Source of the DNA: Gymnodinialimonas sp. 202GB13-11
Lineage (GTDB): Bacteria > Pseudomonadota > Alphaproteobacteria > Rhodobacterales > Rhodobacteraceae
Reading direction: 5' to 3'
DNA length: 64,000 nt
NCBI RefSeq assembly: GCF_040932485.1
Contig: NZ_JBFRBH010000001.1
Span: 868,001 to 932,000 of the forward strand
Shown here piece by piece: positions 41,613-45,726 of the stretch. A program made the position numbers and the translations under genes. Below the pieces are notes generated by a model that did no database searches, was not told where the DNA came from, and saw nothing but the letters and a program-made list of their open reading frames with translations. Each line of letters opens with the position of its first letter. Within the stretch, counting starts at the first letter, position 1.

Positions 41613-41655
41613 TAAAAAAACGGCGATGATCCAAGGGAGGAGAGGATCATCGCCG
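41613..41655 (-). terminator. intrinsic terminator formed by the last anti-SD hairpin
   Basis: The last hairpin in transcription order has a perfect 12-bp stem (41621-41632 with 41644-41655) with loop TCTCCTCCCTT and is followed on the minus strand by a run of seven Ts (41614-41620). It therefore serves both as an anti-SD hairpin and as terminator of the DUF1127 transcript. Confidence 0.85.
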
Positions 41656-41869
41656 CATATCTTGGCCCCTTCCAAGGGAGGAGAGGAAGGCGCCTATGGC
41701 ATCGCTCCAAAGGGAGGAGGAGGAGCTTTGCCGGTCGTCACGGTCCCGATTTGGGAGGAGAGGGACCGATCTTCAAGACCCGTTGCCGAGCCTTTTGTTG
41801 GTGCGGACATGCCCAAGGGAGGAGAGGGCTGCCCGCCATTCCATGCACCAAGGGAGGAGCGGCGCATGG
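41613..41869 (-). ncRNA. six-hairpin anti-Shine-Dalgarno RNA array (cuckoo/CcsR type)
   Basis: Read on the minus strand, just after the DUF1127 gene, six consecutive hairpins each expose a loop containing CTCCTCCC, complementary to Shine-Dalgarno GGGAGGAG. Plus-strand arms are: 41841-41849/41861-41869; 41803-41814/41826-41836; 41741-41747/41762-41768; 41698-41708/41722-41732; 41664-41673/41685-41694; 41621-41632/41644-41655. Stem sequences differ while the loops stay constant, which shows selection for a displayed loop. Rhodobacter sphaeroides has four such CcsR sRNAs behind a DUF1127 gene, induced by RpoH sigma factors under oxidative and heat stress and processed from one transcript. A 34-nt gap after the second hairpin hints at pairs of hairpins as units. 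Confidence 0.85.
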
Positions 41870-41884
41870 TATTCTGTGAGTGCC

Positions 41885-42106
41885 TCAGGCGTTCTTGCCG
41901 TAGGCGGCTTCCAGCGCGATGCGACGGACCATCGAAGGGTTGATGCCCAGGTCAGCCATTTCGCGTGCCGAAAGCTCATTCAGTTCGTTGAGCGTGTTGC
42001 GGTACACGCGCCAGTTGCGATAGGCCTCAACCGCATCGGTGCGGAGGGCTGCAAAGCGGGCGGCCAGCGATTCAGATGCTGCGCGGTTGCTCGTTACATA
42101 TGCCAT
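41885..42106 (-). CDS. DUF1127 small protein (CcaF1-like)
   Basis: A 73-residue basic/helical protein whose C-terminal half, LNELNELSAREMADLGINPS followed by MVRRIALEAAYG, is the DUF1127 motif. In R. sphaeroides the DUF1127 protein CcaF1 is co-transcribed with CcsR RNAs and takes part in RNA binding or maturation. This gene has the same position, 15 nt before the first anti-SD hairpin on the same strand. The start ATG at 42106 has a GAGAGAGTAG leader. Confidence 0.9.
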   Translation of the reverse strand: MAYVTSNRAASESLAARFAALRTDAVEAYRNWRVYRNTLNELNELSAREMADLGINPSMVRRIALEAAYGKNA

Positions 42107-42131
42107 TTTACTACTCTCTCATCGGTCTACT

Positions 42132-42160
42132 GCGGTCCGGACCCCTTGTCCTTGGACCGC
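42132..42160 (-). other. leader hairpin of the DUF1127 transcript
   Basis: GCGGTCC (42132-42138) pairs with GGACCGC (42154-42160) around a loop that contains AAGGACAAGGGG on the minus strand. This purine-rich loop is partly complementary to the pyrimidine loops of the downstream hairpins, so an intramolecular contact is conceivable. Confidence 0.35.
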
Positions 42161-42193
42161 GTTGGTGATTGGGTCGTTGCCCTGTCCCGATTG

Positions 42194-42221
42194 AATTTAG
42201 GCCAATGCTGCGATTGCACAA
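42194..42221 (-). promoter_or_regulatory. candidate promoter of DUF1127/hairpin-RNA transcript
   Basis: On the minus strand TTGTGC (42216-42221) and TAAATT (42194-42199) are separated by 16 bp, about 90 bp before the DUF1127 start. In Rhodobacter this transcript depends on RpoHI/RpoHII. Whether this site is sigma-70- or RpoH-type cannot be decided by eye. Confidence 0.3.
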
Positions 42222-42281
42222 TAACCGATGCGGAAATGCTGCTATGCAGCAGGCGCATGACACATTTCTGTTACATTACGT

Positions 42282-44616: not shown

Positions 44617-44630
44617 CACCGGGTCACCCA

Positions 44631-44650
44631 CAGGTGAAACGAATCACCTG
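44631..44650 (+). other. small hairpin after mrp
   Basis: CAGGTG and CACCTG arms (44631-44636, 44645-44650) around an 8-nt loop lie 15 bp after the mrp stop without a T-run. It may protect the mRNA 3' end. It is too weak to call a terminator. Confidence 0.3.
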
Positions 44651-44743
44651 AAACCAGAACAAACCGGGACCATTTGAATGGCCCCGGGATTTTCTGGGAA
44701 AAAACTTCCACATTCCTCCACTTTCTTCCGTCACCGCCCGTGG

Positions 44744-44788
44744 GCCCCATATCGTGGGATTGTCCTCCATTTGGACACAATATGGGGC
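44744..44788. repeat. long imperfect inverted repeat upstream of the dcw cluster
   Basis: GCCCCATAT (44744-44752) and ATATGGGGC (44780-44788) are perfect 9-bp arms. Inside them ATTGTCC faces GGACACAAT with a two-base bulge. The whole 45-bp element could fold into a cruciform-like hairpin. It lies between mrp and the MraZ boxes. It has no T-run, so an operator or RNA structure are both possible. Confidence 0.5.
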
Positions 44789-44828
44789 GTCTAGAGGTGT
44801 GCGCTCGACACAAGATGCAGTGCTGGAG

Positions 44829-44883
44829 TGGGGTCAAAATCAATAGATTGGGGCAAAGTGGAGTAAAAAGGTGTTGATTGGGA
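44829..44883 (+). promoter_or_regulatory. MraZ-type operator boxes on a 10-bp register
   Basis: TGGGG at 44829, TGGGG at 44849, TGGAG at 44859, AGGTG at 44869 and TGGGA at 44879 lie on one 10-bp grid with A/T-rich 5-nt spacers. MraZ of other bacteria binds direct TGGGN repeats separated by 5 nt upstream of mraZ, so autoregulation of the dcw cluster is likely. The last box continues into the inverted repeat TGGGA-N5-TCCCA. The site is 313 bp before the mraZ start, which implies a long leader or a missed promoter nearer the gene. Confidence 0.65.
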
Positions 44884-45075
44884 GAGTGTCCCATGAGACA
44901 AACAGTCATCGGCAGAACGAGACAACAACGGGTCGCAAAGACCTGAACCAAAAACAAAAATAGGCAGGTTCATACAGGCATCTCATTACGCCGAACAAAG
45001 AGATCCGGCGCGCAGGCGAGCAGACATCCCCCCAGGTAGTTTGCGCAGTCGGACACCCCAGAAATGGGACGAGGG

Positions 45076-45110
45076 CGGCGGTTGAGGAGTGGCAGCTTCC
45101 TCAACCGCCG
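45076..45110 (+). other. perfect 13-bp hairpin in the mraZ leader
   Basis: CGGCGGTTGAGGA (45076-45088) pairs perfectly with TCCTCAACCGCCG (45098-45110) around a 9-nt loop and is followed only by TTTCC. It sits 86 bp before the mraZ start, downstream of the MraZ boxes. It looks like an attenuator-type or RNA-protecting structure. The rest of 44884-45075 shows nothing recognisable. Confidence 0.6.
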
Positions 45111-45195
45111 TTTCCATTTCCGGGCAACGAAATACGGCCAGACTTTGGCCAAATTGTGGCGCGAAGACGCGCCCGGGACATGAGGCAGCAAGCAC

Positions 45196-45726
45196 GTGGA
45201 CGCGCGCTTTACAGGAACAAGCACCGTCAAGGTTGACGGGAAGGGCCGGGTCTCGCTCCCGGCCAAGTTCCGTCGCGCGTTGCAGGCCGCGGATGCCGCC
45301 TGCGGCCCCGGCGATGCGCCGCGCCTCTACATTGCTTACGGCAATCCCGCTTATGATTATGTCGAGTGCCTCTCGGGCGATGCATACGACGATCTCGATG
45401 CACGTATTCAGGCCATGCCCGAGGGCGAGGCTGAGCGCGAAGTCCTTGAAATCCTCTTCTATTCGCTCTGCGATGAGATCGTGGTCGACGATGCGGGCCG
45501 CTTCGTGCTTCCCGGTGCGGCGCGCGAAAAGCTGGCGCTGGACGGCGAGGCCGTGTTCCAGGGTAAGGGCACCAAGTTCCACATCCTCAAGCCTGCCGAC
45601 AGCGAGGCATCGAAGGACAAGCTGGCGGCGATGCTGTCCAAGCTTGGTGAGGGCAAGGAGTTCTTCAACCCCGTCTCCCTTGCGAACCCGCCCAAATCCA
45701 CCCCGGTGAATGACGATGACGCATGA
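45196..45726 (+). CDS. mraZ: transcriptional regulator MraZ
   Basis: AbrB-fold DNA-binding protein of 176 residues, first gene of the dcw cluster. Two tandem SpoVT/AbrB-type units are visible: [19 protein letters not shown] near 8-26 and [20 protein letters not shown] near 93-112. A short proline-rich tail ends NDDDA. A GTG start follows GAGG at a spacing of about 9. It likely represses its own operon through the upstream TGGGN boxes. It overlaps rsmH by 4 bp. Confidence 0.95.

Follow-up and report, generated by a model that had tools for sequence, protein, structure and literature searches.

A DUF1127 gene followed by an array of anti-Shine-Dalgarno hairpins in Gymnodinialimonas, and the distribution of its counterparts and promoter boxes in the Rhodobacteraceae

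On the minus strand of Gymnodinialimonas sp. 202GB13-11, a 73-aa DUF1127 gene is followed by a run of hairpins whose loops carry the complement of a strong Shine-Dalgarno (SD) site, the whole extending from 42106 to 41614 of the window (the 64,000-nucleotide stretch of DNA analysed here). The structure of the array, its covariation in the genus, its linkage to the DUF1127 gene, its neighbourhood, the range of array sizes in the family and the conserved boxes upstream are all observed. The reading that we favour, with a probability of roughly 0.65, is that of a stress operon: the loops would block ribosome-binding sites, and RNA and an RNA-binding protein would be co-produced under the control of a VtlR/LsrB-type regulator.

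The hairpin array in the window and its conservation in the genus

The stop codon of the DUF1127 gene lies 15 nt from the first hairpin, and gene and array consist of the following parts.

41885..42106, minus strand: DUF1127 gene, 73 aa, CcaF1-like (PF06568, E 5.3e-13)
41841..41869, minus strand: anti-SD hairpin 1 (folding, congener alignment)
41803..41836, minus strand: anti-SD hairpin 2, interrupted stem (folding, congener alignment)
41769-41802, minus strand: 34-nt gap between hairpins 2 and 3, holding the seventh hairpin
41775..41794, minus strand: seventh hairpin, without the motif, loop GCAA, inside the 34-nt gap (folding, congener alignment)
41741..41768, minus strand: anti-SD hairpin 3 (folding, congener alignment)
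41698..41732, minus strand: anti-SD hairpin 4, interrupted two-part stem, loop with CCTCCTCCC (folding, congener alignment)
41664..41694, minus strand: anti-SD hairpin 5 (folding, congener alignment)
41614..41656, minus strand: anti-SD hairpin 6, which with seven T forms the terminator (sequence, folding)

A preliminary description of this DNA had proposed six minus-strand hairpins 3' of the DUF1127 gene, with stems all different in sequence and the last one doubling as the terminator, and all of this was borne out. The array RNA has a minimum free energy of -124.3 kcal/mol, compared with -90.65 (sd 4.69) for 200 shuffles (z -7.17), and the loop 8-mers of the six hairpins are computed to be unpaired with mean probabilities of 0.87-1.00. 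Hairpin 6 runs into its seven T with a loop longer than 8, the limit of a simple terminator scan, which therefore missed it. The 8-mer CTCCTCCC has six minus-strand copies at 41635-41859, all in hairpin loops; the whole window has eight, where 2.58 (sd 1.63) are expected and none of 100 shuffles reached eight. The proposal that every loop carries the anti-SD sequence holds for this 8-mer and for CUCCUCCC, each present in six of six anti-SD loops, but not for the strict 9-mer CCUCCUCCC, which is found in one (hairpin 4). Similarly, the 34-nt gap that had been taken to separate processing units is real but is not an open linker, because it is folded into the seventh hairpin.

The DUF1127 gene with its array was present in 13 of 13 genus genomes looked at, our own included. 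The covariation statistics come from an alignment of seven well-aligning congeners that we picked. In it the paired cells amount to 93.4%, and double changes affect 16 of 61 pairs (3/500 shuffles get there) and 35 cells (0/500); paired cells and covariation score were likewise matched by none of 500 shuffles. Of the five measures, only further pair types stayed within the shuffles (139/500). Sliding the 3' partners lowered pairing to 36-47%, a comparison tilted towards the real structure because that structure came from the same alignment. The seventh hairpin is weaker, with 83.3% of cells paired and one of six pairs double-changed among the seven congeners. An alignment of all 13 congeners, which misaligns at the extra hairpins of some species, gave 56 RNAalifold pairs, 26 of them with a double change. 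Upstream of the array, a possible hairpin in the 5' UTR of the DUF1127 gene (42130-42165, minus strand) has CAAGGG in its loop, the complement of the CCCTTG at the loop ends; across the upstream regions of the 13 congeners it is kept in the closest ones only.

Related systems and array sizes in the family

On gene content and neighbourhood, as read from the sequence, the locus is filed as an operon of the ccaF1-CcsR kind. A search of the whole window at Rfam gathering scores returned tRNA only. Below those scores the array matched ar14 (RF02344) with 53.3 bits (E 9e-9; gathering score 58.8), CcsR1 (RF02791) with 28.0 bits (E 1.2e-4; gathering score 65.3) and ar7 with 33.1 bits (E 1.2e-4). We therefore do not regard it as a member of Rfam CcsR1 or ar14, as its scores lie under both cut-offs. 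The suggestion of a CcsR/cuckoo-like array behind a CcaF1-like gene nevertheless stands, on these two sub-gathering scores and on a neighbourhood like that of Rhodobacter sphaeroides, and in the covariance-model check that had been proposed the array did not score down at the level of shuffled sequence.

In the accessible text of the papers on them, cuckoo RNAs are described as 2-4 adjacent hairpins with variable stems and the loop CCUCCUCCC (PMC4504443, PMC3927594). The array shares with them adjacent hairpins in which variable stems bear a conserved anti-SD loop. It is no cuckoo RNA by that description, having six anti-SD hairpins plus one other and the 9-mer in one loop of six. NfeR1 and the other alpha-r14 sRNAs of rhizobia (RF02344) resemble it in their ultraconserved anti-SD loops on variable stems and in an upstream LsrB-type box, TGCA-N6-GCAT, but they have three hairpins, a transcript without a DUF1127 gene and a sigma-70 promoter in rhizobia, and the window stays at 53.3 bits under the ar14 cut-off of 58.8.

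The ccaF1-CcsR1-4 operon of R. sphaeroides (CIN1 locus) likewise has a DUF1127 gene, then anti-SD hairpins and a terminator. One sampled genome (G051) is probably R. sphaeroides, judging from its sequence: its DUF1127 protein has 71 aa, the length given for CcaF1, and it has the top CcsR1 score among the 295 genera surveyed. Over 70 aa the window's DUF1127 protein has 47% identity with that of this probable R. sphaeroides locus (L297, G051:C4:686000-700000). The window, L297 and L298 agree in the side and orientation of Mrp and MraZ, and the predicted RpoH-like promoter with the same double box (see below) recurs in G051. The window has an MFS gene between DUF1127 and Mrp, and an Lrp gene then follows; neither neighbour was found at L297. 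The window also has six single hairpins and a motif-less one instead of regular double-hairpin units, and a CcsR1 score of 28.0 bits against the cut-off of 65.3. The array at L297 consists, by our count, of seven double units with 14 anti-SD hairpins in all, more than the eight expected from the four CcsR RNAs of the R. sphaeroides literature; five of the units are near-identical. Two further observations concern this neighbourhood and gene family. The window has a leader before mraZ (44617-45195; mraZ, 45196-45726), the position from which R. sphaeroides produces the sRNA UpsM. Elsewhere (G007:C6:20602-22676), four DUF1127 matches stand within about 2 kb with CcsR1-like matches among them, and the entire unit may have been duplicated in tandem there.

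The array had been called an expanded version of the CcsR architecture. This was not supported, because six hairpins had been set against four RNAs, and the CcsR1 model itself comprises two hairpins. Nor does the array appear expanded within the family. A pattern of three exact 8-mer loops spaced 22-52 nt apart, run on one genome per genus for 295 genera, matched in 107 genera (10 when read backwards), of which 106 yielded an array; the one left out (L025, in G120) matched the pattern and has a tblastn DUF1127 match there, and gave no array under the stem rule. Under a lax stem rule (cut-off 11) the 106 arrays have 3-26 hairpins with a median of 8; 97 of them exceed four hairpins and 89 reach six. 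Under a stricter one (cut-off 15) the range is 2-24 and the median 7, with 93 arrays above four hairpins and 80 reaching six. Six hairpins are thus no record. The low end of these sizes is missing because the sample was chosen for at least three exact loops. A DUF1127 gene was found at 103 of the 106 arrays, and L020, L061 and L062 are arrays without an upstream DUF1127 gene. The CcsR1 model at E <=0.001 matched in 243 of 295 genera, only 10 above the cut-off, and in one of 14 control genomes, under the cut-off. Class-wide, four of 385 genomes matched the three-loop pattern, two being family members (our own genome and G294); the matches in the two genomes outside the family (G311, G425) look like short direct repeats. 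Shorter or variant arrays were missed because the pattern is strict. Our literature search, which left the 2015 cuckoo family paper aside, turned up no title on arrays longer than 2-4 hairpins.

Sizes are given at both cut-offs because the lax one is weak: 60% of chimeras of one hairpin's 5' flank and another's 3' flank pass it, while at >=15 the figures are 27% for chimeras and 86% for real hairpins (173 of 924 hairpins). At cut-off 15 the window itself has four hairpins, hairpins 2 and 4 narrowly failing. The sets of 924 hairpins (114 arrays) and 111 upstream regions include L011-L018, some of which are repeat genomes of the genus and which do not enter the counts of 106 genera and 103 regions. 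CTCCTCCC is present in 887 of the 924 hairpins. At the eight positions next to the loop, pairing with the hairpin's own partner is 0.93, a value inflated because stems were picked for pairing, and pairing with another hairpin's 3' arm is 0.51; in a scrambled control given the same optimisation the mean stem score was 23.0 for real and 12.6 for chimeric stems (173/924 hairpins). Copies of CTCCTCCC outside arrays also pass cut-off 11 in 18 of 28 cases. In the largest array (L122), most of the length is a 140-base unit repeated 6.5 times with a 97% match, and 28 of 114 arrays have at least two hairpins with an identical 9-nt arm, both of which point to growth by tandem duplication.

Our own genome also has two clusters of short CTCCTCCCGNNCGGGA repeats (L009:1037-1160, C1:2526334-2526443; L010:968-1050, C1:3056665-3056735), placed after a Clp-type ATPase gene and before a lysA-like gene (names from translations). 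They were considered as similar arrays and set aside, as CTCCTCCC there lies in the stem of the CTCCTCCCGNNCGGGA repeats, a different architecture.

Promoter boxes shared by the protein gene and the RNA

Two blocks are common to the upstream regions of the 13 congeners, with the family forms TGCATRGCAGCATTG (box A) and ATTGTGCANNNGCAGCATT (site B). In the window the following elements precede the DUF1127 gene.

42234..42248, minus strand: box A, TGCATAGCAGCATTT, VtlR-like (12/15 identical to the reverse complement of the published VtlR box)
42204..42222, minus strand: site B, ATTGTGCAATCGCAGCATT, with TGCA-N6-GCAT, as in the LsrB box of the NfeR1 promoter (sequence match)
42193..42203, minus strand: -10 region GGCCTAAATTC of a predicted RpoH-like promoter whose TTG lies within site B (RpoHI/RpoHII rules; start site inferred)

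A paper on Brucella melitensis gives, in its accessible part, the VtlR box CAATGCAGCCATGCA at the regulator's targets, three DUF1127 genes and the sRNA AbcR2. Box A differs from the reverse complement of that box, TGCATGGCTGCATTG, by one base in 35 of 103 regions, by two in 50 and by three in 14, the window among them. Matches of at least 12/15 thus number 99 among the 103 regions, whereas dinucleotide shuffles reach that level in 19 of 515 cases; in the wider set 106 of 111 regions do so, and the reversed box scores 11 at most there. Only 15 of 103 regions have GCAT-N3-TG-N3-T to the letter, the form reported for VtlR in Agrobacterium in the part of the paper at hand (PMC7486931). The form TGCA-N6-GCAT, which by the accessible account is that of the LsrB box at the NfeR1 promoter (PMC10746234), is found in site B of 87 of the 103 regions, compared with 2.1 in shuffles, and the distance between the starts of box A and site B is 27-28 nt in 85 of 86 regions. 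A single box alone is not specific: in our own genome the 14-base box A core TGCATRGCWGCATT has one exact match, but with two mismatches allowed it is found 73 times, and the reversed core 21 times.

Site B holds a TTG, with CCTA-like bases downstream at the distance of a -10 element; in the window this TTG and CCTAAATT lie at a distance that would fit an RpoHI/RpoHII promoter. In R. sphaeroides, according to the available text, RpoH promoters conserve TTG at -35, and those of RpoHII stand out by a C at -14 and a T at -13 (PMC3441632). If the site-B TTG is the -35 element, box A would lie near -63 to -49, close to the LsrB motif placed at -61 to -49 in the abcR1 promoter by the part of the source available (PMC8844928).

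The exact double box served as an independent bait. It occurs in 153 of 295 family genera, twice in G048, G094, G168 and G253 and once in each of the others, and no reversed-pattern match was seen. At 30 loci taken from the 153 genomes with a match, an anti-SD hairpin lies <=650 nt downstream in 30 of 30, compared with none of 90 random other-strand places; at least two hairpins are present in 29 and at least three in 27. A DUF1127 gene stands between double box and hairpins in 27 of these loci and is absent from three. In G253, G048 and G094, one double box precedes a stand-alone RNA with two or three anti-SD hairpins (L329, L332, L335) and the other a DUF1127 gene without hairpins (L330, L333, L336); in G168 the second double box precedes a DUF1127 gene and one hairpin (L337). 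L331, L334 and L338 are arrays behind a double box without DUF1127. That the double box stands ahead of protein and RNA even when they are apart is the strongest sign here that both are one unit. In the VtlR/LsrB regulon of Brucella, Agrobacterium and Sinorhizobium, as far as the accessible accounts go, a LysR regulator acts through boxes of the same form on DUF1127 genes and on anti-SD sRNAs (AbcR, NfeR1), but these genes and sRNAs are described there as separate, whereas here they usually appear to form one transcript.

Candidate targets, mechanism and competing readings

Our own genome has 26 occurrences of GGGAGGAG 2-10 nt before an ATG, two of which are one and the same site; the reversed sequence gives 10. 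The candidates include glpK, rodA, sucC, pdhA, pufC and a UgpC-like ABC ATPase gene, and many of the 26 are not gene starts, falling at short or internal frames. For pdhA, loci were taken from 30 of 93 matching genomes, and in 15 of the 30 the 17 nt examined hold at least 7 bases complementary to the family loop, compared with none of 22 nearby ORFs. The wider start rule used here gives 18 of 30 with at least 6 complementary bases; an earlier, narrower one placed 15 starts, 10 of them with at least 6. A few starts look misplaced, and the complement was that of the 12-mer of the commonest family loop, which is longer than the window 8-mer. We take this as support and not as proof, because the control is small and strong SD sites look alike anyway; the signal may only reflect strong SD sites. 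CcsR has been linked to the pyruvate dehydrogenase complex in R. sphaeroides, which the pdhA candidate fits, and the direct CcsR target named in print is the FlhR mRNA.

From these data and from the systems described above we infer transcription, the identity of the regulator, the sigma factor, processing and targets as follows. The DUF1127 gene and the hairpin array would be transcribed as a single RNA and correspond to ccaF1-CcsR. The two tandem boxes would be the binding sites of a LysR activator of VtlR/LsrB type, and RNA polymerase with an RpoH-type sigma factor would start at the promoter overlapping the second. RNase E, helped by the DUF1127 protein, would then cut the 3' part into short stable hairpin RNAs; RNase E processing with the help of the DUF1127 protein CcaF1 has been reported in R. 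sphaeroides. The CUCCUCCC loops would pair with ribosome-binding sites of the GGGAGGAG type by analogy with NfeR1, which, in the accessible part of the work on it, has three redundant anti-SD loops, silences the start region of ntrB via eight paired bases, loses this effect in loop mutants and depends on LsrB to be transcribed. In this way the loops may lower the translation of mRNAs of central carbon metabolism and related ones, with pdhA, sucC, glpK and pufC as candidates. Hairpin number would change in evolution through tandem duplication, and if the loops are interchangeable, that number would set dosage.

Many copies of one loop could also titrate an RNA-binding protein, whether the DUF1127 protein or another. 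CsrB and RsmZ RNAs titrate CsrA. Nearly all hairpins carry the same loop motif on diverse stems (887/924), copy number varies between arrays, the array has a constant DUF1127 partner or a promoter type shared with one, and CcaF1 is stated to bind RNA in the part of the literature available, all as a protein sponge would predict. We consider a sponge unlikely, as the loop is the complement of strong SD sites and NfeR1, by the accessible account, base-pairs through such loops and is without effect once they are mutated. Far less probable is that the array merely shields or ends the DUF1127 mRNA, as exonuclease-blocking 3' hairpins and a terminator without any role in trans. Its position in the 3' UTR with a terminator at the end is what such a role would require, but it is the loop sequence that is conserved and not the stems, and arrays also occur behind the double box without a DUF1127 gene, at three of the 30 bait loci and at L329, L331, L332, L334, L335 and L338.

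The boxes themselves might belong to another LysR-type or an unrelated regulator, or be only an extended RpoH promoter, a reading that we find doubtful and that is compatible with the rest of the stress-operon explanation. vtlR adjoins trxB in Brucella; a search of the trxB neighbourhood found no VtlR/LsrB gene, and an Lrp-type gene, not a LysR gene, stands there. The rarity of the literal Agrobacterium form (15/103 regions) points the same way, as do the R. sphaeroides papers, which in the text available give only an RpoHI/RpoHII promoter at ccaF1-CcsR; in a literature search with most subscription papers outside its scope we found no paper tying ccaF1/CcsR to a LysR regulator. Against this, the published 15-mer is matched at 14 positions in 35 of 103 regions and at 13 in 50 more, the NfeR1 form of site B is present in 87 of 103, the core promoter does not include box A, and the VtlR/LsrB targets published, as accessible, are likewise DUF1127 genes on the one hand and anti-SD sRNAs on the other. 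The title of a paper, calling a VtlR/LsrB-type regulator highly conserved among alphaproteobacteria, suggests that an ortholog exists.

For the family as a whole we lean, by somewhat better than even odds, towards a single arrangement in the Rhodobacteraceae: one LysR regulator of the VtlR/LsrB type would control a DUF1127 RNA-binding protein and an anti-SD RNA via a tandem-box promoter, the two being usually fused and sometimes split, and the RNA would be an array of 3-26 loops, tuned in copy number by tandem duplication, that sets the dosage of a general translation brake. The ccaF1-CcsR stress operon is thereby placed in a wider frame, its VtlR/LsrB-like promoter signature being present in no fewer than 153 of the 295 genera sampled. 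Specialists are likely to find most to test in the variation of array size and in the common promoter signature. Whether DUF1127 protein and anti-SD RNA act as partners, and under which regulator, can be tested directly with a laboratory strain, and the wide spread of loop numbers offers a natural dosage series.
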